The position numbers and the translations under genes are program-made. Shown one piece after another: positions 23,005-47,255 of a stretch of 48,977 nt of DNA (its first letter is position 1; every line of letters begins with the position of its first letter). Origin of the DNA: a virus; the IMG/VR virus record IMGVR_UViG_3300045836_000287, positions 1 to 48,977 of that record; one strand, given 5' to 3'. The notes below the pieces were generated by a model that worked only from the letters and a program-made list of their open reading frames with translations, made no database searches and was not told where the DNA came from.

Positions 23005-23034
23005 AGTGAAAGACTTCGTATGACGATGTGTCAA
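23005..23034 (-). promoter_or_regulatory. Promoter of the lipoprotein gene, possibly leaderless
   Basis: On the minus strand TTGACA (23034-23029), an 18-nt spacer and TTCACT (23010-23005) are followed six bases later by the ATG at 22998. No Shine-Dalgarno fits in the gap, so the transcript would begin at or next to the start codon. The -35 is consensus; the -10 is weak. Confidence 0.5.
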
Positions 23035-25121: not shown

Positions 25122-25750
25122 CAGTCCCTCACTCCCGTCAGGACTTGGAACATGCCGCGGATCTCTTGTCGTACGACCCGGTAGCCACCCTGTTCGAGTA
25201 GGGCTCGGTAGCCAGCTTGGTCGAACGCCCAGGTGTGGAACTCGTAGTGGTTCTGGTCGTTCTCGGTCCACGGGGAGGAGGCGACCAGGACCCTGCTTTG
25301 CACGATCGACTTGACGAACCAGTGCGGATCGACCAGGTGCTCCAGCATCTCCGTACACACGGAGATGTCGCCGAAGCGGATCGGGTGCGTGGGACCGTCC
25401 GGTTCGAGGCGAAGCCAGCCTTCGACGACATCGCCGAGCGAGACGCTCACTCCCCGCTCGTCGCGGGCGGCGTCCACGTTCGTCTGCTGCAGGTCGTAGC
25501 CCCAGGCCGCGATGATCCGGGAGCGGTCGAGGATCGAGAGCAGTCCTCCGTCGCCCGCCCCGAGGTCAGACACTGTGGGCATGTGGTCAAAGAACTCGAC
25601 GGCCGCAGCGTGAACCTGTGCTGCTGCCTCGATCAGGCGGTCGCGGTGCTCGCCCTGTTCAAGATGCGGCGCTCGACTGCGACCGGCGTACCAGGACGGC
25701 TTGGTGTACTCGGGGACGGTGCCCTCGGGAAAGAGACGCCACTCACCCAT
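25121..25750 (-). CDS. SAM-dependent methyltransferase, class I
   Basis: The 209-residue protein has a class I SAM-binding core: SDLGAGDGGLLSIL (motif I), an acidic end of strand 2 (WGYDLQ), GDISVCTEMLEHL (motif IV, methyltransferase-11/23 type). The first 55 residues are extra. The FVKSIVQSRVLVASSPW segment is the usual post-core strand. Context suggests O-methylation of a sugar. Confidence 0.75.
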   Translation of the reverse strand: MGEWRLFPEGTVPEYTKPSWYAGRSRAPHLEQGEHRDRLIEAAAQVHAAAVEFFDHMPTVSDLGAGDGGLLSILDRSRIIAAWGYDLQQTNVDAARDERGVSVSLGDVVEGWLRLEPDGPTHPIRFGDISVCTEMLEHLVDPHWFVKSIVQSRVLVASSPWTENDQNHYEFHTWAFDQAGYRALLEQGGYRVVRQEIRGMFQVLTGVRD

Positions 25751-26433
25751 CAGCACAGTCCTGCCGAGTGCAGTTTTTCCAGTGCGACTGGAAGGCCGTC
25801 GCGCTTCCACGCCTCGAACGCGGCGCCGTCGGCCGGGTAGTTCGCGTTCGCTTCGGCGTATCCGCCGTCGGTCGGCGCCTTGCCCGCCTCGGGATGTACG
25901 TGCTCGATGATGACGTTCGGCAGGTAGCGCAGCCGCCCCATGCCTTCGCCGAGTGCCTTCCAACTGTCGTCCAAAAACATGTGGACCAGGGACGGAGGGC
26001 ACATGTAGCCGATCGTGCGCACGATGTCCGCCGTCATGAACACCGCGGTCGGCAGACGCTCGTGCTGAAGCAGGTCGTCGCCGTAGACGATGCCCGAGCC
26101 CATCTGATTCAGGACACTGATGATCATCTCGTCCCAGCGCGGGGTGCGCGGGCGGTGGTCGTCGCCCATGAACCCGATCGCGTCGTAGTCCGGGTAGTTC
26201 TCCGCGAGCCAGTTCAGGGTCGGGCCGAGACGTCGGCGCGGGCCGACCACGTTGCCCGCCCAGGTGCCGTTCCATCCGTCCAGCGCGAGGTACTGCTCCA
26301 GCCGCGGATCGTCTTCGTCGAGGGCGACGATCAGGTCCGCGTACCAGGAGAAAGTGGCCTGCCATGACTCGATCAGCTGCGCGACGTTGTGCGGTCGCCC
26401 CCGGGACGGGACGAAAACGGCTATACGGTCCAA
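25750..26433 (-). CDS. Glycosyltransferase-like protein (GT-A type)
   Basis: The 227-residue protein opens with IAVFVPSRGRPHNVAQL, has ALDEDDPRLEQY and FMGDDHRPRTP, and looks like GT-A enzymes with acidic metal sites. I start it at TTG 26433 because GAGGAG lies 7 nt upstream. A GTG at 26487, the first three bases of a TGAC-N5-GTCA element, would add 18 residues and overlap the previous gene. Either start is possible. The stop overlaps the methyltransferase start. Confidence 0.65.
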   Translation of the reverse strand: MDRIAVFVPSRGRPHNVAQLIESWQATFSWYADLIVALDEDDPRLEQYLALDGWNGTWAGNVVGPRRRLGPTLNWLAENYPDYDAIGFMGDDHRPRTPRWDEMIISVLNQMGSGIVYGDDLLQHERLPTAVFMTADIVRTIGYMCPPSLVHMFLDDSWKALGEGMGRLRYLPNVIIEHVHPEAGKAPTDGGYAEANANYPADGAAFEAWKRDGLPVALEKLHSAGLC

Positions 26434-26467: not shown

Positions 26468-27505
26468 CTATCTTGACTGATAGTCACGCGGCCAGTAGGC
26501 CTCGCGCCACCGCTGCAGATGCCGGTCGATCGTGTACTGGCGGGCGTGTTCGCGTGCTGCCTCGCCCATCCGCTCGCGCAGCGCGTCGTCGGTGGCCAGC
26601 TCGTGCAGGTACCGCTCCCATTCGTGCTCGCGGCGCACCAGGAAGCCGGTCTCCCCGTGCCGGACGAAGTCCCGGTAGGCCGGCGAGTCCGAGGCCACGA
26701 CCGGAATGCCCATCGCCGCGTATTCCAGGGCTTTGAGATGCGACTTCGACCGGTTGAACGGATGGTCGGATAACGGCGCGATGCCGATGTCGAAGCGGAG
26801 CATCGAGTAGTAGCCGGCCGGATTGGCGAAGATCGGCGTCCACGGAGCGAACTCGGCGATCCCTGCCCGCACCAGGGTGTTGTGCTCGACTCCCATGTAC
26901 CGCATGCGGATCTCGGGGTGCCGGCTGAAGAACCGGCGCAGGTGCCGAGCCGCGACTTCGAAGTCGCCCAGGTGCGTCGCCGAGCCGCCCCACCCGATCG
27001 TCAGGCGGTCGGTCTGCGGTCGGGGAAGGTCGAAGACGGCCGGGTCCAGACAGTTGGGCACGATGTGCACGAGCGCGGGATCGGCGCCGTACTCGACTGC
27101 GCGCTGCGCAAGGTACGGCGTGGAGACGGTGACCGCGTCGGCGGTGCGCAGGTTGGACAGGATGTTGGCCCGCCGCTGTTCGTCGTCGAAGAACGCGCGT
27201 GCCTGCGGGTTCTTCTCGTCGATTCCCAGCAGGTCGTCGTCGATTTCGTAGACCCTGCGCACGTGGCCGCGCAGGTTTCGCCACAGTTGTGTCGGGCCGG
27301 TGTGGCAGGAGCGCTGCCCGACGACCACCTGGCCTGGTACCAGGGTTCGCACGTCGAGCTTGTCGCTGTAGACGACCTGCGCCTCCCCGGTCCGGGCGAG
27401 GGCGTCGAGAGGAACCTTGATGCGGTAGTAGCCGCAGCCCTGCCGGTCGGCCAGCCAGCCGTGGATCCGGCTGCGCTGGAAGGGGGACGGATGACAGATA
27501 GTCAC
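26468..27505 (-). CDS. Glycosyltransferase, GT-B fold (family 1-like)
   Basis: The 345-residue protein has two Rossmann-like halves. The C-terminal half shows IGWGGSATHLGDF, IAPLSDHPFNRSKSHLKALEYAAMGIPVVASD and a RHGETGFLV motif, the GT1/GT4 donor site. The GTG at 27505 is the first three bases of an operator dyad. TAATGT lies six bases upstream and no Shine-Dalgarno is present, so a leaderless message is likely. It is the first gene of the leftward sugar operon. Confidence 0.8.
   Translation of the reverse strand: MTICHPSPFQRSRIHGWLADRQGCGYYRIKVPLDALARTGEAQVVYSDKLDVRTLVPGQVVVGQRSCHTGPTQLWRNLRGHVRRVYEIDDDLLGIDEKNPQARAFFDDEQRRANILSNLRTADAVTVSTPYLAQRAVEYGADPALVHIVPNCLDPAVFDLPRPQTDRLTIGWGGSATHLGDFEVAARHLRRFFSRHPEIRMRYMGVEHNTLVRAGIAEFAPWTPIFANPAGYYSMLRFDIGIAPLSDHPFNRSKSHLKALEYAAMGIPVVASDSPAYRDFVRHGETGFLVRREHEWERYLHELATDDALRERMGEAAREHARQYTIDRHLQRWREAYWPRDYQSR
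26474..26486. promoter_or_regulatory. TGAC-N5-GTCA operator, copy 1
   Basis: TGACTGATAGTCA lies where the upstream glycosyltransferase ends and the next one may begin. On the minus strand it reads GTG ACT ATC AGT CA, so its edge is a possible GTG start. On the plus strand TTGACT with TAGGCC 17 nt away could be an antisense promoter. Confidence 0.55.
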
Positions 27506-27517
27506 AGTTAGACATTA
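27492..27517 (-). promoter_or_regulatory. Operator copy 2 and leaderless promoter of the sugar operon
   Basis: On the minus strand an extended -10, TGC-TAATGT (hexamer 27517-27512), stands six bases before GTG 27505. The dyad TGAC-TATCT-GTCA (27504-27492) begins on the second base of the start codon. A bound repressor would cover the start point of transcription. The -35 is poor. Confidence 0.6.
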
Positions 27518-27568
27518 GCAGGTTGATAACAGGACAATGGGGTATACGGACGAGCCGGAGGGACTGAC

Positions 27569-27880
27569 GTGGCGAGCGTGGTGACCTGGCTCGGATCGCT
27601 GCCCTGGGCCCCGATCACGGCCGCGAGCCTCGTCGGCACTTTCGTCCTGATGGTGTGGCGCGGTACTTTGGTCCCGAAAGCCACCTTCGATGCGGTTTGC
27701 CGGATTCAGGAGTCGCACCTGGCGGAGAAGAGCCGGGAGAGCGACGACTGGAGGAACGCGTTTCTGAACTCCGAGAAGGCACGCGCGCTCACCGACCAGC
27801 AACTGGCCCGCGTGCTGGAACTGTTGCAGAGTACCGACCTGTTCATCAGGTCGCTGCCGAGGAGCGGTGATCCCGATTAA
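27569..27880 (+). CDS. Small membrane protein of the lysis block
   Basis: The 103-residue product has one transmembrane span (about residues 12-30, PWAPITAASLVGTFVLMVW) and a charged coiled-coil tail. GGAGGG lies upstream of GTG 27569. It may be a holin-like or spanin-like accessory because the endolysin follows. Function inferred from position only. Confidence 0.55.
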   Translation: MASVVTWLGSLPWAPITAASLVGTFVLMVWRGTLVPKATFDAVCRIQESHLAEKSRESDDWRNAFLNSEKARALTDQQLARVLELLQSTDLFIRSLPRSGDPD

Positions 27881-28067
27881 GCGCTTGATCCGGCGCCGCA
27901 GGGCGCAGGCGGACGAGAAAACACAGTCGTTCGGCTGTGAGAAGGCGGCCGCGGCGAAGGACGCGAGCGCCAGGGCGCTGGAGGCGGTCGTGCAGCGCGA
28001 CAAGGTGATCAAGGCGTTGCCGGGACTTCTCCTCGCCCATGCCCACCACCAGGAGCCGGTCCGATGA
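27867..28067 (+). CDS. Small basic protein of the lysis block
   Basis: The 66-residue product starts in the last codons of the previous gene and overlaps the endolysin by four bases. It has an Arg-rich N-terminus and an Ala/Lys/Glu helix. No family recognised. Confidence 0.5.
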   Translation: MIPIKRLIRRRRAQADEKTQSFGCEKAAAAKDASARALEAVVQRDKVIKALPGLLLAHAHHQEPVR

Positions 28068-28870
28068 CACGCACGATGATCGACGGCGTCGTAGGCGACG
28101 CCGCGCAGATGGCTGCGCGGGCGAGCGGATACCAACTCGTCGCAGGGTACGATGACGGCCTTTATGCCTGGAGCGCTGACGAGTGGGCGCTCTTTCCCGG
28201 CACGGTCCATGTGCACATCGCGGTCTTCTCCACCACCAACAGCGGCACGGTCCTCGACGTTGAGAACGGCGACGCCACCCCGGCACAGTCCGTGGACTGG
28301 GTGCTGATGCGCCGAAAGGCCGGCGCCGATCCGAGCGTCTACTGCAACACCTCGACGTGGCCGCTAGTGCGTGCCGCCTTCGCCGCCCGGAACGTCGCGG
28401 AACCGCACTACTGGATCGCGAACTACGACGGTGTCGCCGAGGTCCCGAACGGTGCGATCGCCAAGCAGTACGCGGACAACATCCGGCTTGGCAAGCCCTG
28501 GGACATCTCAGCCGTCGCCGACCACTGGCCCGGCACCGATCCTGTCGACGCGCCCACAACCGATGGGTCCGTGAGGAGAAACGACATGCACATCGAGCTG
28601 AAGCCGGGTATGACCCCGGCGGTCTTCACCAACCCGGCCGCGGCACTGGGTGGAACCTCTCGCATGCTAGTCGCGAGCGACTTCGGCGATCTGAAGCTCC
28701 GGATCGCGACGTACAGTTGGGCGACGAAGGGCTGGACGATCCACGACGAGGTCTCCGTCAACTCGACGAGCCCGGCATACGCGCTCGACCTGCCGCCGGA
28801 CACCAACAAGGTCTCCGTCTGCCTGGAAGCCGACTCGACTGGTTTCGGCGGCCTGGACGTGCTGGCCTGA
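28064..28870 (+). CDS. Endolysin with a glycoside-hydrolase-like domain
   Basis: The 268-residue protein has, at about residues 1-160, the pattern of the GH25-like or DUF1906-like glycosidase group: GDAAQMAARASGYQLVAGY, LDVENGDATPAQSVDWVL, PSVYCNTSTW, YWIANYDG. The Asp-Glu of LDVENG is a likely active-site part. The C-terminal 90 residues form a separate beta-rich domain that probably binds the wall. It is followed at once by a holin-like gene. Confidence 0.7.
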   Translation: MTRTMIDGVVGDAAQMAARASGYQLVAGYDDGLYAWSADEWALFPGTVHVHIAVFSTTNSGTVLDVENGDATPAQSVDWVLMRRKAGADPSVYCNTSTWPLVRAAFAARNVAEPHYWIANYDGVAEVPNGAIAKQYADNIRLGKPWDISAVADHWPGTDPVDAPTTDGSVRRNDMHIELKPGMTPAVFTNPAAALGGTSRMLVASDFGDLKLRIATYSWATKGWTIHDEVSVNSTSPAYALDLPPDTNKVSVCLEADSTGFGGLDVLA

Positions 28871-29085
28871 TGGCCGAGAAGACCAAGCACGCGCTGCGCG
28901 CCGCCCTCTCCGCACTGGTCGCGATCAGCGGACTGGTCCCGCTGGTCCTTGGCACCGGAAGCTCCGGTGCCCAGGTCGGCTGGGCGGCGGGAGCGGTCGC
29001 CGCGGCCGGCGCCGTCAACAGACTGCTCGCGGCCGCGGACCCATACCTGCCCGGGTGGTTGAGAGTCGGTCCTCCCCGTTCGTGA
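28870..29085 (+). CDS. Holin (two-span)
   Basis: The 71-residue product has two hydrophobic helices (about residues 10-28 and 36-56) with a short Gly/Ser turn and charged ends, as in class II holins. ATG 28870 overlaps the endolysin stop by one base. It should open the membrane for the endolysin. Confidence 0.7.
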   Translation: MAEKTKHALRAALSALVAISGLVPLVLGTGSSGAQVGWAAGAVAAAGAVNRLLAAADPYLPGWLRVGPPRS

Positions 29086-29095
29086 CCTGGTCTGA

Positions 29096-29124
29096 TTGAC
29101 GAAAAGTCACGATCCGGCTAAGAT
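29096..29124 (+). promoter_or_regulatory. Promoter with operator copy 3 before the XRE gene
   Basis: TTGACG (29096-29101), a 17-nt spacer and TAAGAT (29119-29124) form a good promoter. TGAC-GAAAA-GTCA (29097-29109) covers the -35 and half the spacer. ATG 29131 lies six bases after the -10, so the mRNA is probably leaderless and the gene probably autoregulated. Confidence 0.75.
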
Positions 29125-29130
29125 CACCGC

Positions 29131-29415
29131 ATGAGTGTCCAGCGCCCTGTCTCCCAGATGCAGTTCGCCGCGGACATCGGGTGCCACTACACCCTGGTCA
29201 CGCGGTACCGAAACGGGGAGCGGCTGCCCACGGTCGAGCACCTCGCCAGGATGATCGAGACGTACGACCTCGATCCGATGGAGGCCATCCGGGCCGTGAA
29301 CGCGGCCAACGAGCGCGACGCGGACGGGAACAAGACACACCCGAAGGCGTTCGCCACCTACCTGCGGGACAACATCTTCACCGCCCCGGCACCGAAGACG
29401 AAGAAGGCGAAGTAA
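29131..29415 (+). CDS. XRE/Cro-type helix-turn-helix regulator, candidate master repressor
   Basis: The 94-residue protein has a HTH at about residues 8-45 (SQMQFAADIGCHYTLVTRYRNG..., then LARMIETYDLDP), a basic C-terminus, and no protease or oligomerisation domain. The promoter carries a TGAC-N5-GTCA dyad, and a terminator follows at once, so it is a single-gene unit. The dyad recurs at seven other sites, which makes this product the best candidate for the protein that reads it. Whether it represses lysogeny or times early genes is unknown. Confidence 0.75.
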   Translation: MSVQRPVSQMQFAADIGCHYTLVTRYRNGERLPTVEHLARMIETYDLDPMEAIRAVNAANERDADGNKTHPKAFATYLRDNIFTAPAPKTKKAK

Positions 29416-29446
29416 GAGAGCCCGGCTCGTCGAGCCGGGCTCTCTT
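29414..29446 (+). terminator. Terminator after the XRE gene
   Basis: A perfect 15-bp stem (29414-29428 with 29432-29446) closes a GTC loop and ends in CTCTCTT. It starts inside the stop codon. Confidence 0.8.
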
Positions 29447-29458
29447 GTCCTCGTAGTA

Positions 29459-29507
29459 TTGACAGATAGTCACATGAGCGGCAGACTTCTCTTTGACAGA
29501 TAGTCAC
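29459..29507 (+). promoter_or_regulatory. Tandem operators (copies 4 and 5) and promoter
   Basis: TTGACAGATAGTCAC occurs twice, at 29459-29473 and 29493-29507, 34 bp apart. TTGACA of the first copy with CAGACT (29482-29487) 17 nt on is a possible promoter whose start point falls in the second copy. Two helical turns plus part of another separate them, allowing cooperative binding. Confidence 0.7.
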
Positions 29508-29522
29508 AGGGAGGACGAGCCG

Positions 29523-29873
29523 ATGACCCAGTCCCAGATCCGCGCCCGAGTCACCGCACTGCGCCTGCAGCGGCTGGCCCGCGTCGCGCGTCTCTTCGCC
29601 CGTCTCGCACGGCTGATTGAGAAGCCGCTGACGGTCGAGTCCTTCCTGCGCGGCAAGGGCCTGGACGGTGGCGTGCTGCGCTCGGTGTGGGGGACCTTCG
29701 GCAAGCGGGTCAAGGCCCTGTACTCCGAACTGCGCGGCGGCCGGAAGCCCGCGACCGTCTGGCAGACCGTCACCTCCCCGGCCGGCAAGGTCCGAGAGGT
29801 CGAGGTGGCCGCGTACCGCCTGAGCGACCTGCCGATCCTGCAGGCCGTCTGGAACCAGTTCTACGCGATCTGA
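29523..29873 (+). CDS. Basic helical protein of unknown function
   Basis: The 116-residue product (AGGGAGG upstream) has an Arg/Leu-rich amphipathic N-terminus (about residues 8-38) and a C-terminal part with GRKPATVWQTV...EVEVAAYRLSDLP. Tight control by two operators suggests an early or regulatory role. No family recognised. Confidence 0.55.
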   Translation: MTQSQIRARVTALRLQRLARVARLFARLARLIEKPLTVESFLRGKGLDGGVLRSVWGTFGKRVKALYSELRGGRKPATVWQTVTSPAGKVREVEVAAYRLSDLPILQAVWNQFYAI

Positions 29874-29881
29874 GGAGCTCC

Positions 29882-30529
29882 GTGACCCCCGAAACTCATC
29901 ACCCGAAGGGCGCCAACGACGTGTGCCTGGAATGCGGCCAGCACGTGGACGCGCGCATCCACCACACGCCCGAGCGACTGTCCGGCCAGCACAAGCCCGC
30001 GATCGGCGAGCGCATGCTGCTCGACCCGCTGGAGGAGGGCGCCAACCTGATCGCCGCGGCGATCACGCCCAGAGGGCACGGCTGGACCTACGCCGCTCGG
30101 TTCACGAAGGAGGCCCTGCGGGACCTGATCGCGGCCGGATGGACACCGCCGGCCCGGGAGGCGAGCGACGAAGAGTCGAAGCTGCGGGCCGAGCTGGAGT
30201 CCGCGTACGCACGGATCGCGCAGGACGGCCTCCAGATGCACCAGGTGACCGGCGAGATCTTCGCCCTGACCGCGCTGCGCAACCAGCTCGTGCACGACGT
30301 CTTCGCGACGGCCGGACTGGGCGACGCACGGGCAGCGGAAGTCAGGGCGGACACGGAGAAGCGCTATAGCCGCAAGGACGTCGCGGATCTGCTCAAGAAG
30401 GTGCTCGACCGCTGCGACCGGGCTAAGGACTCGGCCCAGAAGCAGCACGACAAGCAGACCGCGGACTGGGAGGAGACGACTGCGAGGAAGATGGTCGGAT
30501 TGGCTGAGCGCCTGGCCGCGTCCGAATAA
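29882..30529 (+). CDS. Hypothetical protein with a CxxC motif and coiled coil
   Basis: The 215-residue product starts at GTG 29882 after GAGGAG. It has CLECGQHVDARIHH near the N-terminus (possible zinc site), then a long charged helical region to the end. It is co-transcribed with the previous gene and followed by a terminator hairpin. Function unknown. Confidence 0.55.
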   Translation: MTPETHHPKGANDVCLECGQHVDARIHHTPERLSGQHKPAIGERMLLDPLEEGANLIAAAITPRGHGWTYAARFTKEALRDLIAAGWTPPAREASDEESKLRAELESAYARIAQDGLQMHQVTGEIFALTALRNQLVHDVFATAGLGDARAAEVRADTEKRYSRKDVADLLKKVLDRCDRAKDSAQKQHDKQTADWEETTARKMVGLAERLAASE

Positions 30530-30539
30530 CCGCTCAGAC

Positions 30540-30572
30540 CGAAGGGCCCGGCTCGTCGAGTCGGGCCCTTCG
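30540..30572. terminator. Hairpin between convergent genes
   Basis: A 15-bp stem with one G-U pair (30540-30554 with 30558-30572) closes a GTC loop. Its core matches the terminator at 29414-29446. It can serve both strands. Confidence 0.75.
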
Positions 30573-30803
30573 TCATGCCTTGACCCAGCCGGCCGGGCCC
30601 TTCCAGAAACCGTGCGTACCGCATTCGAGGCACTCGATCGACGGCGTCAGCGATCCGTCAGCCGCCCACTCCCAGCCGTTCGGACCGAGAGGCAGTTTGG
30701 CGCCGATGTCCTCCCACCCGGCGTGGACGCCGGTACAGGCATGGAAGAAGATTGGGTGGCCGTCGTCCGGATCCCGCTCGACACGAGGAAGCGGCAGGAC
30801 CAT
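30573..30803 (-). CDS. Small hypothetical protein with a CxxC pair
   Basis: The 76-residue protein has HACTGVHAGWEDI and ECLECGTHGFWKG, a possible metal site, and a Trp-rich C-terminus. It is the last gene of a three-gene leftward unit that ends at the 30540-30572 hairpin. Confidence 0.55.
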   Translation of the reverse strand: MVLPLPRVERDPDDGHPIFFHACTGVHAGWEDIGAKLPLGPNGWEWAADGSLTPSIECLECGTHGFWKGPAGWVKA

Positions 30804-30804
30804 G

Positions 30805-31032
30805 TCAGAACTTGACCAGCTGCGTCGAGCTGTACCCCTGGCCGAATCCGTCGCCGTCCCCGGTCCACTCCACGATCGGGTGCTGGGTGTCCTGGGCGAA
30901 CGGGTCCATGTGCACGCCCGTGACGACGCCGCGCTGGCCGGACAAGCGGTGCTGGACCTGGTCCCCGGGCGAGTAGGCCGGGTTTCCGTTACGGTCCCCG
31001 GGCGGCTGGTCGGTGGCCACTTCCAGCGTCAT
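30805..31032 (-). CDS. Small SH3/Tudor-like protein
   Basis: The 75-residue protein shows the short-barrel pattern GDQVQHRLSGQRGVVTGV ... PIVEWTGDG ... YSSTQLVKF. It resembles its upstream neighbour (GDRVVHRTLGHGVVVGH), so the pair looks duplicated. It overlaps the upstream gene by four bases. Function unknown; such domains often bind nucleic acid or protein. Confidence 0.55.
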   Translation of the reverse strand: MTLEVATDQPPGDRNGNPAYSPGDQVQHRLSGQRGVVTGVHMDPFAQDTQHPIVEWTGDGDGFGQGYSSTQLVKF

Positions 31033-31439
31033 CGCGCCCTCCTGGGAGCGTCTGAGACGGCGTCCTGGGTTCCGCAGTAGAGGTCGACCGGCGTCGCGCC
31101 GGCCGGGCGGATCGAGTTCGGGGCGATGCCCTGGGCGAGCGAGGCGTCCTCGCCCTCGAACGCCACACGCGGCGTGATGCGGGCCGTGTGCGGGTCGCGG
31201 TGGTGACCGACGACGACGCCATGTCCCAGGGTCCTGTGCACGACTCTGTCGCCGACCTGGTGAGCAGGAGTGGGGTCGGTCGAGTGGTCCTGGTTCATCT
31301 CGGTGCCGGCCCGGGGATGGTAGCCCTGATTGAGGCTCAGCTCCTGCGGGATCGTCGTGCCGAGGTCCAGGCCGCCGGTCGACGGCGAGCCGTCTCCCTG
31401 GCTCTGGTACGGGCCGCCGCCCTGAAACTGTGCCCTCAT
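31029..31439 (-). CDS. SH3/Tudor-like protein with a disordered N-terminus
   Basis: The 136-residue product has about 70 disordered Gly/Gln/Ser residues, then GDRVVHRTLGHGVVVGH and TPRVAFEGEDAS. I chose ATG 31439; TACCCT lies seven bases upstream and no Shine-Dalgarno is visible, so it may be leaderless. A GTG at 31463 is an alternative. Confidence 0.55.
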   Translation of the reverse strand: MRAQFQGGGPYQSQGDGSPSTGGLDLGTTIPQELSLNQGYHPRAGTEMNQDHSTDPTPAHQVGDRVVHRTLGHGVVVGHHRDPHTARITPRVAFEGEDASLAQGIAPNSIRPAGATPVDLYCGTQDAVSDAPRRAR

Positions 31440-31473
31440 GTCAACCAGGGTACATCGGAGCACTGAAAAGGGA

Positions 31474-31506
31474 ACCGCCCCAGTCGTCCTCGGCGACTGG
31501 GGCGGT
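31474..31506 (-). terminator. Terminator downstream of Ro60 and tRNA-Ser
   Basis: A perfect 13-bp stem (31474-31486 with 31494-31506) with a 7-nt loop is followed on the minus strand by TTCCCTTTTC. It would end leftward transcripts coming from the Ro60-tRNA region. Confidence 0.75.
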
Positions 31507-31664
31507 CCAAAACCCGACCCCGGAGGGAATCAGGTGGTCTGGGCGGATCCCAGGCCCGTGTCCGCGCAACTGATCCGGTGTCGCGTCCACCCTCACAGTT
31601 GGATATCCGAGCGAGGTTGCCGGGATTAGTCTGCAGCCGTACCCGACTAGCTTGCGCCTCCGCG
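31507..31664. other. Noncoding stretch between terminator and tRNA-Ser
   Basis: No gene, operator or convincing structured RNA was found in these 158 bases. Leftward transcripts from the tRNA pass through it. Confidence 0.4.
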
Positions 31665-31743
31665 TGGCAGAGAGGGGATTCGAACCCCGGCCCTAGCGGG
31701 CTCCCGTTTTCGAGACGGGCGAGCACTCCTGCTCCACTCTGTC
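31665..31743 (-). tRNA. tRNA-Ser (anticodon CGA)
   Basis: The minus strand folds into a class II tRNA. The anticodon loop is CTCGAAA in a CCCGT/ACGGG stem, the long variable arm is GCCC/GGGC, and the T loop is TTCGAAT. The acceptor GACAGAG pairs with CTCTGCC except for an A-C mismatch at the second pair, and CCA is not encoded. It lies 60 bases beyond the Ro60 gene and reads UCG serine codons. The mismatch means end points are approximate. Confidence 0.75.
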
Positions 31744-31802
31744 GCAATCCGGGCCCGGCCGTGTTGGCGCCTTCGACGGGGCCCGGTCACTAGATTCCTA
31801 CT

Positions 31803-33524
31803 CTACTGCTTAGATCCGTCAACGCGCGCCGCGTGCAGCAGCTCCGCCACGTTCTCGTCCTGCCGGGGGCCGCGCAGGAACCCGGAGACGAGCTGCGGCA
31901 GCGCCGCGTCGAAGCCGGCCACCTGCAGGACGCCCTCGTCGCGCGGGTCGGCGATCGTGTGCCCGGCCGCGGTCATCGACGCGACGATGACGCGAGCGTC
32001 CGGGTTCACCGCTGCCCGGTAGCCGGCCAGGGCCTGGCTCGGGTGCTGGCGCCCCGCCCACGTCTCGTTGTCGGTCAGGACCAGGATCCCGTCGACCGCC
32101 ATCCTCTCCCGCTGCGCCCAGGCGAACGGCAGAGCCAGGTTCGTCCCGCCGCCGCTCGGCCGCCAGCCCGCGATCTCACGCAGGTTGGTGCGCGGCGTGA
32201 CCCGTGAGCTGTGCACGTCGGTGTCGACGTCGATGACGTGGACGTTGCCCTTCTCGATCCGCGACATCGTCACGGCCAGGCCGCACGCAATCTCGTACGC
32301 ATGGCCGATCGGCGAACCGCCGAGCACGACCCGGCCGGTGCTCGTCGTCATCGACCCGGACGAGTCGACCGCGACCAGCAGCTTGCGCCCGGACGGCTCG
32401 GCGTGCGCGAAGCAGAGCTCGTACGCCTCCTCCAGCGCGTCGGAGATCGCCGCGACCGGCGTCCAGGTGCGTGCAGGAGCCTTCGGGTTCGGCTGAGCGA
32501 AGCCGCAGTTGTAGACCTTCAGGGCGAGGTAGACCTCCAGCGGATGGACGCGCGCCTTCCTCAGCGCCTCGGCGTCGGTCAGCCGGCGCACCGCCGTTGC
32601 GTTGGCCTTCCCGAACGGTGCGAGCGCGCCGATGCGGGTCATCCGGGCCAGGTTGCGGATCAGAGCCGTCATGCCGACCGTCTCGGCCAACGCCGTCCAG
32701 ACCTCGGGCGAGTCGAGCACCTCGTCCGGCAGGAACTCCCACGGCACGCGCAGGGTCTGCACAGCGGTCACGGCCTCGGCGGGTCGGGTGACCGCCTTGG
32801 CGATCCGGAACTTCTCCACACTCGGCAGCACCTCGGCCGCGCTCGCGTCGTCGACATTACCGGTGAGCCAGCCGAACAGGGTGTCGACGCGCGGATCCGT
32901 GGTCGTCGGCTTGGCCAGGCGAAGCATGTCCTTGAGGGCGAACGGCTCGCCGCTGCCCGTCTTGCGCGCCCTGGCCTTGCACGCCCGGAACGCGACCCGG
33001 TCCGGGTCGTCGTGGGTGAACCAGTCGGCCAGCGTGCTGCGCATCAACCGGTTCATGACCGGCGCACTGCCGCGGCCGGACGGCTTACCCTTGAGGTTCT
33101 TGTAGTAGCCCCAGAAATGGGCGAAGTGGTCGGTGGTGCGCGCGACATTCGGCAGCGCCACGCGTGCCGCGCGCCGGGCGTCCAGGTCTCCCCGGGCGAA
33201 GGCAGCGGCGAGAACGAACAGGGCCGGGAAGTTCTTCGGCGCGCGGCCGGCGACGCTGATGTTGTTTGCCAGCTGCACCGCGCGCAAGCCGTCTGCCGTG
33301 ACCGCGTCGAAGACGACCTGCGCGTTCGCGTAGGTGTGCTCCCTCTCCCCCACGTAGTAGGTGCCGCCCGTGGTGCCGAGGATGAGGAAGTCCTCCAGCT
33401 TGGTGAACAGGTCCTTGCCGAAGGTGAAGCCGCCCGCGTTGTTGCGGACCATCTCCTTCTGACGGCCGGGGATCGGCTCGGTTTGCGGTGTGCGTACGGT
33501 ATTGATCGCGGACAGTGCGTCCAT
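31803..33524 (-). CDS. rsr: Ro60 orthologue (TROVE domain plus von Willebrand A domain)
   Basis: The 573-residue protein has the TROVE signature near its N-terminus: KLEDFLILGTTGGTYYVGE, followed by NISVAGRAPKNFPALFVLA. The C-terminal vWA domain has the MIDAS motif VDSSGS (Asp387, Ser389, Ser391) and LVLTDNETW as the later Asp site. Ro60 is a ring that holds misfolded RNA ends in its hole and Y RNAs on its outside; bacterial Rsr helps RNA decay by exonucleases. I start it at ATG 33524 behind GAGGAGAGA. It lies just downstream of five Y-RNA-like units on the same strand, which supports a complete phage Ro/Y system. Confidence 0.92.
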   Translation of the reverse strand: MDALSAINTVRTPQTEPIPGRQKEMVRNNAGGFTFGKDLFTKLEDFLILGTTGGTYYVGEREHTYANAQVVFDAVTADGLRAVQLANNISVAGRAPKNFPALFVLAAAFARGDLDARRAARVALPNVARTTDHFAHFWGYYKNLKGKPSGRGSAPVMNRLMRSTLADWFTHDDPDRVAFRACKARARKTGSGEPFALKDMLRLAKPTTTDPRVDTLFGWLTGNVDDASAAEVLPSVEKFRIAKAVTRPAEAVTAVQTLRVPWEFLPDEVLDSPEVWTALAETVGMTALIRNLARMTRIGALAPFGKANATAVRRLTDAEALRKARVHPLEVYLALKVYNCGFAQPNPKAPARTWTPVAAISDALEEAYELCFAHAEPSGRKLLVAVDSSGSMTTSTGRVVLGGSPIGHAYEIACGLAVTMSRIEKGNVHVIDVDTDVHSSRVTPRTNLREIAGWRPSGGGTNLALPFAWAQRERMAVDGILVLTDNETWAGRQHPSQALAGYRAAVNPDARVIVASMTAAGHTIADPRDEGVLQVAGFDAALPQLVSGFLRGPRQDENVAELLHAARVDGSKQ

Positions 33525-33571
33525 GGTCTCTCCTCTCAACCCGGCCGGCGGCCGGATACGGAAACGACAAA

Positions 33572-33610
33572 GGCGGTCCCTGCTCCGGGTCGGATGGAGC
33601 AGAGACCGCC
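33572..33610 (-). terminator. Terminator or attenuator between the RNA array and Ro60
   Basis: A 15-bp stem with one mismatch (33572-33586 with 33596-33610) is followed on the minus strand by TTTGTCGTTT. It ends the RNA array but some readthrough would express Ro60, for which no separate promoter was seen. Confidence 0.7.
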
Positions 33611-39925: not shown

Positions 39926-40031
39926 CCGATCCACCTCCCCGCTTCCCCCAGGCGTCGGCCCAGGAACAGCCGACAGCCATCACGGCGATCGCCACGGCGA
40001 CGACCGAGAAGAATTGTTCGAGTCCTGTCAT
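39891..40031 (-). CDS. Small single-span membrane protein
   Basis: The 46-residue product begins MTGLEQFFSVVAVAIAVMAVGCSW, a hydrophobic helix with a possible lipobox-like AVGC, and ends in a charged GKRGGGSDAERGGRR tail. ATG 40031 overlaps the preceding stop by four bases. Confidence 0.55.
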   Translation of the reverse strand: MTGLEQFFSVVAVAIAVMAVGCSWADAWGKRGGGSDAERGGRRIDV

Positions 40032-40201
40032 GGAAGTCTGGTCACCTCGTCCAGGTGGAAAGTCAGCGGTTCGGTGTCCCCGTCGAGCAACACGCAGCAC
40101 ATCCGCGTCTGCACGGTCTTCACCTCGCCGGCCTCGCCCATCAGCGAGGACATGCGGTTGGAGACCATGACCCGGTCTCCGGGCTGCAGCGGCCTTTTCA
40201 C
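40028..40201 (-). CDS. Small SH3/KOW-like protein
   Basis: The 57-residue product (GTG 40201, four-base overlaps both sides) has PGDRVMVSNRMSSLMGEAGEVKTV ... VLLDGDTEPLTFHLDEVTRL, a short-barrel pattern like those at 30805, 31029 and 35130. Function unknown. Confidence 0.55.
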   Translation of the reverse strand: MKRPLQPGDRVMVSNRMSSLMGEAGEVKTVQTRMCCVLLDGDTEPLTFHLDEVTRLP

Positions 40202-40806
40202 CCCAACTGCTCCAGCAACTGGGTGAGGAACGGCATGTACTTCTCACCCAGCGGGCCGTATTGCGCCGATTCGAGCGCGATCCGGGTCAGGTGGATCTTG
40301 CGTTCCAGGTCCTCGATACGCAGTTGCGCACTGTCACGCTCGTTGCAGTGATCGCCACACAGGTCGGTGGCCTTTTCGAGCTCTTCCTTCGCTGCGGTCA
40401 GCTCGTCGTGCTTATCAGCCACCAGACGGGCGCGCCGATTGAGTTCTTCCAGCAGCTCGGCGACGTACTGCGGCGAGTTCTTCAGGAACTGCGCCACCGG
40501 GTTGTCGATGTCGCGAAAGGTCGTCGGGTCGTAGTAGGCGCGCGGGACGATCAGCTCCCTGGCCGGGCGCATGCGCGCCCATCCGCTCTCCTCCCAAACC
40601 GGGAAGGCCGGCTGGGCGCCCTGCATGCCGCAGCGTTCGAAGAGCATCACGCACTTACGGCCGGAGTGGTCGGTCGCGAGGATCGGGCCCTGTCTCGTGT
40701 CGCCGAACCACGCCCAGGGCGGTGCAGGCACCGCACGCAACGCGGCGAGGATCTCGTCGAGCCGTTGAGGACTCAGGCCCGGTCCGGAGCCGTGTCGCTC
40801 GTTCAC
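40198..40806 (-). CDS. Hypothetical protein with a C-terminal coiled coil
   Basis: The 202-residue product (GTG 40806) has a folded N-terminal half with PPWAWFGDT and a long coiled coil (about 115-180). The segment FLKNSPQYVAELLEEL is common in actinophage early proteins of unknown role. It overlaps both neighbours by four bases. Confidence 0.55.
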   Translation of the reverse strand: MNERHGSGPGLSPQRLDEILAALRAVPAPPWAWFGDTRQGPILATDHSGRKCVMLFERCGMQGAQPAFPVWEESGWARMRPARELIVPRAYYDPTTFRDIDNPVAQFLKNSPQYVAELLEELNRRARLVADKHDELTAAKEELEKATDLCGDHCNERDSAQLRIEDLERKIHLTRIALESAQYGPLGEKYMPFLTQLLEQLG

Positions 40807-41009
40807 TTGGCCGACTCGGGCGCGATGCACTTGCCGTTCCAGACCAGCACGTCGCCGCTCTGGGCAAAGCACGCGATCTGACTGTCGGGCTGGGTGTAGA
40901 CGACGCCGGAGTGCGACGGGGCCTGGACCGGCGCGGCCTTGCAGCCGCGCTCCACCAGCCACGCCGCAGTCTGCGCGACGTCCTGCACCGTGATCTTCTC
41001 CACCGTCAC
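40803..41009 (-). CDS. Small hypothetical protein
   Basis: The 68-residue product (GTG 41009) contains DVAQTAAWLVERGCKAAPV and DSQIACFAQSGDVLVWNGKCI. It sits between the XRE gene and the coiled-coil gene with four-base overlaps. No family recognised. Confidence 0.5.
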   Translation of the reverse strand: MTVEKITVQDVAQTAAWLVERGCKAAPVQAPSHSGVVYTQPDSQIACFAQSGDVLVWNGKCIAPESAK

Positions 41010-41266
41010 TCCCCTGTCTTCTCGTGCGACTGCGCTTCGTCGAGCAGGTCGTCGACCGGCAGTTTCAGTGCGTCCGCCAGCGACTTGAGGGCAGGCGCGC
41101 TCGGCGGCCGGTCCCCCGCCTCGTAGTGGCTGATCGAGCTGCGGTCCACCGGGCAGGCACTGTCGGACGTGCGCTTGGCCAGGTCCTCCTGTGTCAGTCC
41201 GGCGCGTTCACGCGCCTGACGCAGGCGCGCGTTGCTGAAAGGGAGTGAGAGGGAGGTGCGAGGCAT
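41006..41266 (-). CDS. XRE-type regulator of the left-going operon
   Basis: The 86-residue protein has LRQARERAGLTQEDLAKRT ... DRSSISHYEAGDRPPSAPALKSLADALKL, a full Cro/C1 HTH. Its ATG lies six bases after TAGCGT and has no Shine-Dalgarno, so the mRNA is probably leaderless. It opens an operon that runs to 37121. With the divergent XRE gene at 41396 it forms a switch-like pair. Confidence 0.8.
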   Translation of the reverse strand: MPRTSLSLPFSNARLRQARERAGLTQEDLAKRTSDSACPVDRSSISHYEAGDRPPSAPALKSLADALKLPVDDLLDEAQSHEKTGE

Positions 41267-41272
41267 GCCGAA

Positions 41273-41358
41273 ACGCTACCGCACATCACCGCACATCACA
41301 AGACAAGATGCGCTTTCAACCGACCTGCCTTGGCACCCGTCTCTATGTGCGCTAACGT
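41273..41358. promoter_or_regulatory. Divergent promoter region with shared 14-bp boxes
   Basis: Minus strand: TTGTGA (41301-41296), 17 nt, TAGCGT (41278-41273). Plus strand: TTGGCA (41330-41335), 17 nt, TAACGT (41353-41358). Each -10 is the end of a 14-bp box, ATGTGCGGTAGCGT (minus) and ATGTGCGCTAACGT (plus), 12 of 14 alike. Tandem CCGCACATCA copies (41279-41298) fill the minus-strand spacer. Confidence 0.7.
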
Positions 41359-41395
41359 GCGCGTATGAGCGCCCCATCACGGAAGGGCAACGCTT

Positions 41396-41770
41396 ATGTC
41401 GACGGATCCCCCACCCGTCATCCTGGAACGCGCCGTCGAGGACCGACGGCTGGAACTCGGCCTTCAGAAGCAGGAAGTCGCCGAGAAGGCGCGTGTCACC
41501 GCGTCGTACCTGCGCCGCGTCCTGTCCGGAAAGAACCCGCTCTCACCGGACCTGAAAGCCGGCCTGGAACGGGCTCTGGACTGGCCGCGAGGCTATATCG
41601 ACAGCCTGCGGCCGCCCAGCGACACCGATAGTCCTCCGCCCGGCTCCCGGTACACCCAGGAGGAATGGGACCGGCTCGATGCCTCGGACCGGCAGTTGCT
41701 GCTCGACATCCACCGAAAGCTGAATGATCATCAGAATCATCCCATTCAGCGACGCAAAGTAGCCAGATGA
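41396..41770 (+). CDS. XRE-type regulator, divergent partner
   Basis: The 124-residue protein has LERAVEDRRLELGLQKQEVAEKARVT ... YLRRVLSGKNPLSPDLKAGLERALDWP, a Cro/C1 HTH with an unusual long N-terminal lead, and a C-terminal helix ending in basic residues. GGAAGGG lies 8 nt upstream of ATG 41396. It may be the repressor opposite the smaller Cro-like partner. Confidence 0.75.
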   Translation: MSTDPPPVILERAVEDRRLELGLQKQEVAEKARVTASYLRRVLSGKNPLSPDLKAGLERALDWPRGYIDSLRPPSDTDSPPPGSRYTQEEWDRLDASDRQLLLDIHRKLNDHQNHPIQRRKVAR

Positions 41771-41787
41771 TGAGTAGGCTCATATGA

Positions 41788-42462
41788 ATGACTGACGGTC
41801 TATTCATCATCTTGTGCGCCGTAGCCGTGGTCCTTACCGGTGTGATCTGGATTCAGGCCCGGCGTATCAGGCAACTGCAACGCAAGGTGGACGTGCACGC
41901 GGAGGCGCTGCGCATGCTCGCCCAGCCGATCCACGTCGAGCTGCCGCCCGAGCCTCCCACGAAACCCGACCTCAAACTGCTCAAGGGCGGCATGGTCGCG
42001 TTCAGCGCCGCCACCTCGGGCACGATCAGCTACCTGCACAAGCACGGTGCGAGCAGCAGCGCCATCGCAGCCGGGGCGGTCGCGGCCGTCCTCTCCGGCA
42101 TCCTCGTGTTCACCGGGGTCGGGCGTCGCGCGCCGTCCGCGATGCGGCCGCCCGAACTGCCGGCGCTCTCCCCGCCCGCGTCGGCTCCACTCTCCCCCTC
42201 GACCGCCCCGGTGCCCGTACCCGCCTCCCGATCCGCCTCACCGTCGGCCCGGCTGGCGTCGGGAGCAGTCCCGGCCGCGGCGGTACAGCGCCCTTCCCCT
42301 CACCCGAGCACAACGGCACCGCCCGTGCAGCGCACGACGGCTGCGCCGTCTCCGGTTCGCAGCCAGGTAAGGCCCTCTCCTTCGACGCCGCAGCCGTCAT
42401 CCTGCCCAGTCGGCCTATCCCTGCGGTTCGACCCGCTCCTGTTGCTCGACGTCTGCGCGTGA
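41788..42462 (+). CDS. Membrane protein with a Pro/Ser-rich tail
   Basis: The 224-residue product has a transmembrane helix at about residues 4-22, a second hydrophobic segment near 90-112, and a long Pro/Ser/Ala/Arg region from about 120. It follows the XRE gene by 17 bases. Its end overlaps a convergent small gene. Function unknown; perhaps a cell-surface or exclusion protein. Confidence 0.55.
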   Translation: MTDGLFIILCAVAVVLTGVIWIQARRIRQLQRKVDVHAEALRMLAQPIHVELPPEPPTKPDLKLLKGGMVAFSAATSGTISYLHKHGASSSAIAAGAVAAVLSGILVFTGVGRRAPSAMRPPELPALSPPASAPLSPSTAPVPVPASRSASPSARLASGAVPAAAVQRPSPHPSTTAPPVQRTTAAPSPVRSQVRPSPSTPQPSSCPVGLSLRFDPLLLLDVCA

Positions 42463-42522
42463 GCGCACCCGGACCAACACGGCGCGACACACGTCCAGGG
42501 CGTCAACGGCCTTCTTTGTCAT
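42415..42522 (-). CDS. Very small hypothetical protein
   Basis: The 35-residue product (MTKKAVDALDVCRAVLVRV...) starts at ATG 42522 with a four-base overlap to the previous stop. Its 3' end overlaps the end of the convergent membrane gene by 48 bases. Reality is uncertain. Confidence 0.35.
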   Translation of the reverse strand: MTKKAVDALDVCRAVLVRVRSRADVEQQERVEPQG

Positions 42523-42662
42523 CGGCGCTTCCCGTCGAATTCGACGACCTCGTGCCGACACCTCGGGCAGAACCGGGTACGGTACATCGCGCGGCGCACA
42601 CCGTTGGTCCACGCTGACCACTCGCCCTGGTGTCCGCGTACCAGGCAGACCAATCTCTTCAT
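42519..42662 (-). CDS. Small CxxC protein
   Basis: The 47-residue product (MKRLVCLVRGHQ ... RTRFCPRCRHEV) has two Cys groups that could bind zinc. ATG 42662 lies four bases after the lipoprotein stop. Confidence 0.5.
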   Translation of the reverse strand: MKRLVCLVRGHQGEWSAWTNGVRRAMYRTRFCPRCRHEVVEFDGKRR

Positions 42663-42666
42663 GCGA

Positions 42667-43248
42667 CTACTTCTGCAGCTGCGGGACGCTCGCGTAGGTC
42701 GCGATCGGAGCGTTGGAGACCAGGAACGGCAGGTCGGTCTCGACCAGTGCGCCGCCGACCGTCCGGAAGAACACGCCGAACTGTCCGCCCTCTTCCGGAC
42801 CGTAAGAGCCGTCATCGCCGGGTGCCAGATTGGTGCAAGACTGCCCGTTCGCGCAGTTGACGTTGACGTCCGTACTCGTCATCTGGCTGCCCGTGCTGGA
42901 GACCTTGCCCTGGATCACGTAGTAGCCGACGACCTGCCCGGAGAAGGTGAAGACGTAGACGTAATTGGTGCTGCCCTTGCTGTTGTACGACTGCAGCCGG
43001 AAGGCAAGGTTCTTCAGCTCCAACGGGTCGGACGGCGGATTCTTCGTGCAGCCCGACGTGGTGCAGTTGGCGTACGGATACGGGACGGCCTGGTCGAATT
43101 CCTGGGCAACCGTGCCGGAGATGTTGTTCTGCCGGGTCTGGTTCGCACTGGCGCTGTTCGACGTCGAGTGGTTGCACGCGGCCAGGGTGAAGGTGAGGCC
43201 GAGCGCCGCGACGATGGCGGCGACCAGGATCTTGATCCGGTGGTTCAC
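42667..43248 (-). CDS. Lipoprotein
   Basis: The 193-residue product has a signal sequence with lipobox FTLAAC near residue 25, then an Asn/Ser/Thr-rich stretch and a domain with three Cys pairs. It overlaps the upstream membrane gene by four bases. Secretion to the cell surface is likely. The pair resembles envelope-stress or exclusion modules, but function is unknown. Confidence 0.65.
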   Translation of the reverse strand: MNHRIKILVAAIVAALGLTFTLAACNHSTSNSASANQTRQNNISGTVAQEFDQAVPYPYANCTTSGCTKNPPSDPLELKNLAFRLQSYNSKGSTNYVYVFTFSGQVVGYYVIQGKVSSTGSQMTSTDVNVNCANGQSCTNLAPGDDGSYGPEEGGQFGVFFRTVGGALVETDLPFLVSNAPIATYASVPQLQK

Positions 43249-43694
43249 GGGGTCTGAAGTCCTGTCGTGTTGGACGCGCACTGCTGCTGCGCGTCGAGGT
43301 GGTCGGGGTATCCGTCGGGGATGACGGCCAGCGCGTTGCCGGCGTCGGTGTTGTACTGGGCAACGTCGTTGCTGCACGCCATCTCGACGCCGGTCAGATT
43401 GGTCGTGTCGATCGACGTCGCGTGCGCTCCGGCCGCAGCCTGGACGGCGGTGCGGATGTTGCGCTGGTCCGACTGAACGTTCTCGTAGTCGCCCTTGATC
43501 GTGGCCGACCAGTGCTCGCGATTGTCCGCAGTGCCGCGCTGCTGCTGGATCTGCAGCGTGCCCTTCGCCCCGCTCGTGCTCGCGGCCAAGACCCGGATTC
43601 CCCAGATCAGAGCCAGCAAGGCGACGATCGCGAGAACGCAGTAGACCAGGATCCGACCGAGGCGGAAGTCGCCCCGGTCGTCGTAGATGCTCAC
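43245..43694 (-). CDS. Single-span membrane protein
   Basis: The 149-residue product has a transmembrane helix at about residues 14-36 (ILVYCVLAIVALLALIW) and an extracytoplasmic helical domain with QQQRGTADNREHWSATI. GTG 43694 follows AGAGG. It is first in a leftward operon with the lipoprotein, driven by an operator-bearing promoter. Confidence 0.6.
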   Translation of the reverse strand: MSIYDDRGDFRLGRILVYCVLAIVALLALIWGIRVLAASTSGAKGTLQIQQQRGTADNREHWSATIKGDYENVQSDQRNIRTAVQAAAGAHATSIDTTNLTGVEMACSNDVAQYNTDAGNALAVIPDGYPDHLDAQQQCASNTTGLQTP

Positions 43695-43753
43695 ATCAGA
43701 CCTCTGGATTGAGGGTCGATTCGGGCGGAAATGCCCGATTTTCAGATGGTTCG

Positions 43754-43783
43754 ATGCTAAGGAAGTGCGTGACTATCTGTCAA
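43754..43783 (-). promoter_or_regulatory. Promoter with operator copy 8
   Basis: On the minus strand TTGACA (43783-43778), an 18-nt spacer and TAGCAT (43759-43754). TGAC-N5-GTCA spans 43782-43770. The site lies inside the last codons of the HNH gene and serves the membrane protein-lipoprotein operon. Confidence 0.75.
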
Positions 43784-44203
43784 CACGGCGCGGGCCGGCG
43801 GATTGATCAGGTAGAGACCGACTCGGAAGAACGCGACCGGATCGTCACGGCGGCGTCCGATGTCACGGTTGCAGTTCGAGCAAATAAGACCTCTTACACA
43901 CTTGCCGCACGACGTCTTCCCCGGACAGCAGGAGTGGTCGTGGTCGACGGCCAGCTTGCGCGCTTTCCCGGTCGCGATCAGGCACCCCGCGCACCTGCCT
44001 CCCTGCGCCGCGTACAACCGCGCGTAGTCGCCGGGCTGGAGATTGTAGGTAGCGCACACCTTGCGGTCGTGCTCTTCCTCCCGGCGCCGGGCGACGACCG
44101 CGCGGTGGTGCGTGGCGCACCGCGGCCCTGGGTGCGGCGCCGGCCGTTTCGTCGTGACTCCTAAGGCGGCACAGTCCTTGCACCGTCTCGGCTTCCCGGT
44201 CAC
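43757..44203 (-). CDS. HNH/endonuclease VII-like nuclease
   Basis: The 148-residue product has CAGCLIAT, then VDHDHSCC and RGLICSNCNRDIG, the His-Asp-His and zinc Cys pairs of recombination endonuclease VII. A further CKDC ... CATHH cluster lies at the N-terminus. Such enzymes resolve branched DNA or nick at packaging. GTG 44203 overlaps the polymerase stop. Confidence 0.8.
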   Translation of the reverse strand: MTGKPRRCKDCAALGVTTKRPAPHPGPRCATHHRAVVARRREEEHDRKVCATYNLQPGDYARLYAAQGGRCAGCLIATGKARKLAVDHDHSCCPGKTSCGKCVRGLICSNCNRDIGRRRDDPVAFFRVGLYLINPPARAVLTDSHALP

Positions 44204-47079: not shown

Positions 47080-47246
47080 GCCGTGCGTACCAGCGTCCTC
47101 GGATGGCAGGCCGGGCACCGGTAGATCAGGTTGGCCGGCGGGACCGGGGTCAGGGGCGTGCTGCAGGTCTCGCACTCCAGCTCCGGCAGGTTCACCGCCA
47201 GCGGGAGCAGGTGGTCGATCGGCAGGCGCGCAGTCGGTGCGTTCAT
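47076..47246 (-). CDS. Small zinc-ribbon protein
   Basis: The 56-residue product has ECETCSTPL and YRCPACHP, two CxxC pairs 17 residues apart. AGGAG lies six bases before ATG 47246. Its third-codon GC is much higher than that of the polymerase frame across the same bases, so it is the real gene here. It ends with a four-base overlap to the polymerase start. Confidence 0.7.
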   Translation of the reverse strand: MNAPTARLPIDHLLPLAVNLPELECETCSTPLTPVPPANLIYRCPACHPRTLVRTA

Positions 47247-47255
47247 CCCCATCTC

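Follow-up and report, generated by a model that had tools for sequence, protein, structure and literature searches.

Candidate operators of a small XRE-family protein across the genome of an uncultured phage, compared with known phage repressor systems

The L5/R4 phages carry 20–30 genome-wide sites for their repressor, operators as well as others, and the R4-like repressor gene is located between the lysis and the early genes (PMC10276819, PMC6550527). Their stoperators are asymmetric 13–14-bp sequences, found mostly off promoters and oriented with transcription, and the repressor that binds them is a monomer containing two DNA-binding domains (PMC6550527, PMC9283540). Restriction-modification (R-M) controller (C) proteins such as C.Esp1396I are small helix-turn-helix (HTH) homodimers that recognize GAC-spacer-GTC with a conserved outer TG, and one of their operators overlaps a -35 element (PMC3758141). 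Here, a 48,977-nt stretch of viral DNA (IMG/VR record IMGVR_UViG_3300045836_000287, positions 1 to 48,977; hereafter the window) was analyzed for the dyad TGAC-N5-GTCA, which an earlier note on the same DNA had described as an eight-site regulon under the master repressor encoded by the XRE gene at 29131. We propose, at a probability of roughly 0.78, that the dyads are operators of this XRE protein, which would bind as a dimer, repress its own and other promoters and serve in immunity or early-gene control. All evidence used is sequence-based, with gene calls made using a simple codon-usage script; it establishes the sites, their architecture, their conservation and their co-variation with XRE.

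A total of nine TGAC-N5-GTCA dyads were found in the window against 0.89 expected, a count reached by none of 100 shuffles. Copies with one mismatch were not in excess (17 versus 22 expected), which argues for a sharply defined set of dyads rather than a compositional background. The eight coordinates of the earlier note (26474, 27492, 29097, 29460, 29494, 34417, 37095 and 43770) were all exact, while the ninth copy, at 23021-23033, had been missed. Five of the nine (29460, 29494, 34417, 37095 and 43770) are exact copies of one 15-mer, TTGACAGATAGTCAC, read from either strand, and the 27492 dyad has the same 13-mer as these five.

The window overlaps a second record, IMGVR_3300045836_000276 (G003), at positions 1-127 and 48851-48977; since these overlaps are exact and 127 bp long at each end, the two records close into one circular phage genome of 75,672 bp, to which G003 contributes an integrase, an excisionase-like gene and 11 further dyads. 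The closed genome thus contains 20 copies of TGAC-N5-GTCA, so that the window, although its eight listed sites are real, holds under half of the regulon. The dyad also recurs in relatives with the same XRE gene, as the proposal in the earlier note requires, with 19 copies in G001 and 15 in G002, mostly at matching positions and including the XRE promoter. Among all 4-N-4 dyads with gaps of 0-13, it ranked first in the closed genome, G001 and G002 (P values of 2e-17, 2e-14 and 1e-12 in the three genomes), and the backward-read pattern, used as a control, was found 0 times in each record of the four relatives G001-G004. A scan of viral contigs for the 15-mer returned 34 stretches, with more than one copy only in G001 (74.7 kb), G002 (72.6 kb), G003 (26.9 kb) and G004 (6.3 kb); lone exact matches in other viral contigs were taken as chance. 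Megablast of window positions 26-45 kb against public phage records gave no match. The G+C content (67%) and the Streptomyces-phage relatives discussed below suggest an actinobacterial host for what we describe as a soil phage.

The sites have a consistent architecture. The consensus element is the 15-bp TTGACRGATAGTCAC, with the aligned form TTGAC(A/G)(G)ATAGTCAC; it is an imperfect dyad, as 46 of 53 sites have C for the right outer base (position 14) and the centre reads RGATA. A NANNNT -10 element follows at a spacer of 17 or 18 in 37 of the 53 sites, where ∼4% would be expected and where other spacings give about 2 of 53, and the strict form TANNNT at spacer 18 accompanies 13 of 53 dyads but none of 301 TTGAC occurrences outside dyads. 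At these promoter sites the left arm doubles as the -35, as the earlier note had stated, correctly to the base, for 29096 (TTGACG-17-TAAGAT), 34430 (TTGACA-18-TAACGT), 37108 (TTGACA-18-TACGAT) and 43783 (TTGACA-18-TAGCAT). The 29460 dyad has a weaker -10 only (CAGACT, spacer 17), and none of the dyads at 29494, 26474, 27492 and 23021 is a -35 promoter. Elsewhere a second class of sites would lie over the start point or ribosome-binding region; start codons are found ∼50–54 nt after promoter sites and ∼16–25 nt after second-class sites, and where the two classes are paired they are 28, 29 or 34 bp apart. Site centres are non-coding in 50 of 57 cases (expectation 12%, the non-coding share of the sequence), and the longest dyad-free interval in each genome, 23–25 kb, spans the virion structural genes. 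Between orthologous sites, positions left free in the search are 70–100% identical, compared with ∼52% in the upstream flank and 61% in the remaining spacer.

The proposed regulator is a 94-aa protein encoded at 29131..29415 on the + strand, which passes the curated cut-off of the HTH_3 profile (PF01381; 23.5 bits versus 23). Its gene comes after the lysis genes, where R4 and phiC31 also have their repressor genes (PMC10276819), and its promoter (29096..29124, +) bears the dyad TGACGAAAAGTCA (29097-29109) over the -35 and the spacer. The earlier observation of a site in the gene's own promoter thus holds in the window and also in G001 (41599) and G002 (15541). The ATG lies 6 nt past the -10, from which a leaderless mRNA is predicted. 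The G001 and G002 proteins are 90% and 73% identical to that of the window; the HTH segment GCHYTLVTRYRNGERLPTVEHLA, recognition helix included, is identical in all three phages, and so is the operator. More distant homologues (34–36% identity) are encoded by Streptomyces Hiyaavirus phages, in the same slot after an endolysin and a membrane protein, and by other viral contigs, and the family ends in an invariant F..(Y/F)LR...F. Its sole match in the genome collection was NZ_SCTN01000606.1, a 7-kb contig of an Aquabacterium metagenome-assembled genome that looks like a mis-binned phage fragment.

The Hiyaavirus-type phages allow the regulator and its candidate operator to be compared between lineages. 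Hiyaa and Galactica contain essentially no TGAC-N5-GTCA; instead, CTTGC-N7-GCAAG is present in 15 copies in Hiyaa, 21 in Galactica and 19 in G012, and is among the top dyads of the first two. In the form TTGCG-N5-CGCAA, its half-sites are spaced like those of TTGAC-N5-GTCA, and a -10 stands 17 or 18 bp downstream of 54 of the 55 copies. The promoter of the XRE homologue itself has a degenerate dyad, CTAGC-N7-GCAAG, within TAGCGC-18-TACACT, and again a predicted leaderless start. Hiyaa and Galactica have no HTH_3 protein other than the homologue (gp32 in Hiyaa, 28.2 bits to HTH_3), and among the handful of proteins detectably common to both lineages it is the only HTH_3 or recognizable DNA-binding one; a small shared protein considered as a possible WhiB regulator looked MazG-like on visual inspection. 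The Hiyaavirus system (gp31/32) resembles that of the window phage in the XRE homologue, its slot and the TTGnn-N5-nnCAA geometry over the -35, but differs in the inner bases of the half-site (CG rather than AC) and in that no integrase was found. The proteins gp31/32 are annotated as HTH or hypothetical, and no description of their function was found in the papers searched.

The same signal was followed as the frequency of CA at the predicted arm offset 12 in promoter-like sequences of the homologue-carrying phages, most of which show a peak at this offset. CA was found there in 50–56% of cases in the window lineage and 72–80% in Hiyaa, Galactica and G012, but in only 36% in G006, 16% in G005 and 21% in G009, with other offsets giving 4–7%; in five Streptomyces phages where no XRE homologue was found it was 0 of 14. 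Genomes within a lineage are not independent, and these values amount to two strong and three weaker cases. A second dyad, TAAT-N3-ATTA, is strongly enriched as well (14 copies in Hiyaa and 6 in Galactica); it seems to extend over the -10 of the CTTGC promoters, which would suit binding by a second regulator at that place.

Co-variation of operator and XRE protein in the Hiyaavirus-type phages makes the assignment much stronger than proximity alone would. From these data we infer dimer binding, repression and a lysogeny role, as follows. An XRE dimer would bind the 15-bp TTGACRGATAGTCAC. At promoter sites the element would supply the -35 (TTGACR) and fill the spacer to a -10 17–18 bp off, so that the bound dimer would block RNA polymerase; at the second set of sites, where it is often the latter member of a pair spaced 28, 29 or 34 bp, it would lie across the start point or ribosome-binding region. 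Placement over both the -35 and the start point points to repression by exclusion of RNA polymerase. The protein would thereby shut down the leaderless promoter of its own gene and some dozen other early or accessory promoters, with the integrase/excisionase intergenic site among them, and may act as an immunity or early-gene repressor of the phage. The master-repressor role named in the earlier note is thus supported by the relatives and by the co-variation, with control of the sugar genes as its weakest part; the sites there (26474 and 27492) are not -35 sites.

Several other binders, or none, could be imagined for these sites. Chance or repetitive DNA has practically nothing to recommend it: no point in its favor was found, and the shuffles, the backward-pattern control and the conservation refute it. 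Use of the sites by a host regulator is very improbable, given that the site sequence and a phage gene change together from one phage lineage to another and that the element is absent from the five Streptomyces phages without a detected XRE homologue. The motif might alternatively be a mere promoter element, a -35 plus spacer read by a host or phage sigma factor; most sites do coincide with a -35, and the phage encodes a sigma factor. We give this only a slim chance, however, as a -35 of TTGAC with a -10 of TANNNT is the usual housekeeping pattern, for which a second arm would be superfluous, whereas the second arm is dyad-related to the first and shifts with it between lineages (TTGAC/GTCA to TTGCG/CGCAA), and several sites, some of them in reverse orientation, serve as no -35 but lie at a start point or start codon. 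Finally, the binder could be another regulator of the phage, i.e. one of the divergent XRE proteins (41006, - strand; 41396, + strand), the GntR-like protein (35924, -) or the LuxR/sigma-4-like protein (35404, -). Each of them is also conserved in both G001 and G002, and the divergent pair resembles a CI/Cro switch, yet this seems unlikely as well: none was detected in Hiyaavirus, where the operator geometry is the same and the 29131 homologue is the sole HTH_3 protein; they are 44–59% identical between the window and G002 (XRE 73%) while the operator is unchanged; and the region between 41006 and 41396 has its own conserved elements and no TGAC dyad. Those elements, in the window, G001 and G002 alike, are CGCACATCAC, present twice, and TGTGCGCTAACGTGCGC, and the pair (41006-41770) resembles a second CI/Cro-type switch, a local one.

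What the XRE protein does for the phage is less settled than which sites it would bind. A tyrosine integrase (PF00589) is encoded in G001, G002 and G003, and in G003 an excisionase-like HTH gene diverges from the integrase gene with a dyad between the two, so that integration genes are present in the same phage, as in temperate phages. The integrase, its excisionase-like neighbor, the intervening site and the repressor slot shared with R4 and phiC31 lead us to lean towards an immunity-type repressor. Several points nevertheless weigh against the proposed reading, in part or in whole. The operator is not fully symmetric, either in its outer flank or in its centre. The long homologue-carrying contigs G005 and G009 give a weak CA peak and no dominant dyad, and a large regulon is therefore not universal. 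No tyrosine or serine integrase and no ParB were detected in Hiyaa or Galactica, which indicates that a lysogeny role is not general, and the divergent XRE pair of the window, which has conserved operators to itself, could be the actual lysogeny switch. These last two points also favor a different role for the same binder, as a Cro-like temporal switch that turns early promoters off in lytic growth: the regulon persists in Hiyaavirus-type phages, for which neither integrase nor ParB was detected, and the window lineage carries that separate pair. The integrase, the excisionase-like gene and the site between them in the window lineage speak against such a switch, as does the position of the XRE gene in the R4 and phiC31 repressor slot. 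We regard it as a serious possibility, if the less probable one; it overlaps with the reading favored here, which claims the XRE protein as the binder first and a role in lysogeny second.

When the known systems are compared with this locus, the system is seen to work like phiC31 CIR/c or L5/R4 repressor-stoperator regulation while belonging to neither by the tests run. The same dyad census, applied to phiC31 as a check of the method, returned CTACT-N6-AGTAG and CTCAC-N0-GTGAG in 13–15 copies, which we equate with the conserved inverted repeats (CIRs) known from this phage. Both phages thus have many identical palindromes, in phiC31 within a Streptomyces phage genome, and a repressor gene after the lysis genes; in the window lineage the palindromes likewise lie near early promoters and are lacking from late genes. 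However, the phiC31 c gene spans 2,052 bp, compared with a single-domain protein of 94 aa in the window phage, the operators differ, and tblastn of XRE in phiC31 gave no match, so that no homology to c was detected. With L5/R4 the window phage shares the number and genome-wide spread of sites and the slot of the repressor gene, but it has dyad sites (notwithstanding the asymmetric outer base and centre), in both orientations and mostly on promoters (37 of 53 with a -10, and 54 of 55 in Hiyaa-type phages), and a small single-HTH protein. No relation of XRE to the R4/L5 repressor was detectable: R4 gp29 matches phrog_3929/357, whereas the 29131 protein matches phrog_638 and neither of those. The C proteins resemble the window system in the small HTH protein, the operator half-sites and the -35 overlap, and C.BclI gave a marginal sequence match to XRE (E 0.05–0.09); this makes recognition of such a site by a small HTH dimer plausible, but is not enough to class XRE as a C protein. 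C proteins control a few sites beside R-M genes rather than ∼20 genome-wide sites, and no R-M genes were seen beside XRE, where the neighbors are lysis and phage genes, although no dedicated R-M search was run.

Immediately downstream of XRE, a tandem pair of TGACAGATAGTCA dyads 34 bp apart (distal, 29460..29472; proximal, 29494..29506 and adjoining the ribosome-binding site; both +) precedes a gene for a basic 116-aa protein (29523..29873, +) that the pair is proposed to control. This conserved neighbor of XRE (83% identity in G001, 66% in G002) has no Pfam or PHROG match. The pair is kept at 41962/41996 in G001 and at 17150/17116 in G002, where the unit is inverted, the gene beside XRE being reversed relative to XRE.

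Three leftward promoters have the dyad over the -35. The first (34401..34430, -; dyad 34417-34429; orthologues at G001 46802 and G002 21157) reads into a proposed target, a Y-RNA-like (YrlA) array (33675..34281, -), and a Ro60/TROVE gene 3' of it (31803..33539, -; PF25045 E 1e-38, PF05731 E 2e-18). In the array, the best match to Rfam RF02553, at 34018-34120, scored 40 bits (E 1e-6), under the gathering score of 69, with weaker matches at 34183-34281 and 33675-33782; a single dyad promoter thus heads several YrlA-like Y RNAs followed by the Ro60/TROVE gene (31803-34430). The second promoter (37079..37108, -; dyad 37095-37107; G001 49839, G002 24233) precedes a sigma-70-family, ECF-like sigma factor (36292..36801, -; PF04542 E 8e-14, PF08281 E 3e-7), which shares a leftward operon (35404-36801) with the GntR-like and LuxR/sigma-4-like regulators; placement of all three in one operon under this dyad promoter probably makes them a second tier of the regulon. 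The third (43754..43783, -; dyad 43770-43782; G001 55835, G002 29485) serves an operon (42667..43694, -) for a membrane protein (43245-43694) and a lipoprotein-like protein (42667-43248) with a signal ending in LAAC.

The remaining window sites lie among glycosyltransferase genes. Another TGACAGATAGTCA dyad (27492..27504, +) covers the GTG start of the glycosyltransferase gene 26468-27505 (start at 27505, -), just 3' of the extended -10 TGCTAATGT, and may act as an operator at +1; promoter block and site are kept in G001 (40011). At the 3' end of the same gene, TGACTGATAGTCA (26474..26486, +) stands 40 nt before gene 25750-26433 (-), as in G001 (38993). The ninth dyad, TGACGATGTGTCA (23021..23033, -), separates the glycosyltransferase gene at 23036 (-) from gene 22525 (-) and has the same place in G001 (35555) and G002 (11181). 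Outside the window, G003 has a PAPS-reductase-like gene (1972-2871) whose promoter contains two dyads in tandem. The DNA polymerase I region (44200-48977) contains a single open frame of ∼1590 aa of which G001 and G002 match only parts, making an intein or a fusion possible.

Taken further, these comparisons give somewhat better than even odds to a widespread, previously undescribed family of small actinophage repressors (XRE proteins with a C-terminal F..YLR..(I/V)F), whose operator, with the fixed geometry TTGnn-N5-nnCA(A), would be fused to the -35 of most regulated promoters and whose half-site inner bases would be re-specified together with the recognition helix, yielding separate immunity groups. 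A candidate regulator, its operator and ∼20 target sites can now be named for an uncultured phage group, and the assignment extends to the cultured Streptomyces phages Hiyaa, Galactica, Keanu and Spocter, in which gp31-33 are annotated simply as HTH or hypothetical proteins. The occurrence of the same protein and geometry with different half-sites in two lineages offers a direct test of how the specificity of a genome-wide repressor changes. If the proposed reading is true, it would also place a phage Ro60/Y-RNA-like module and a phage sigma factor under the control of a phage repressor.

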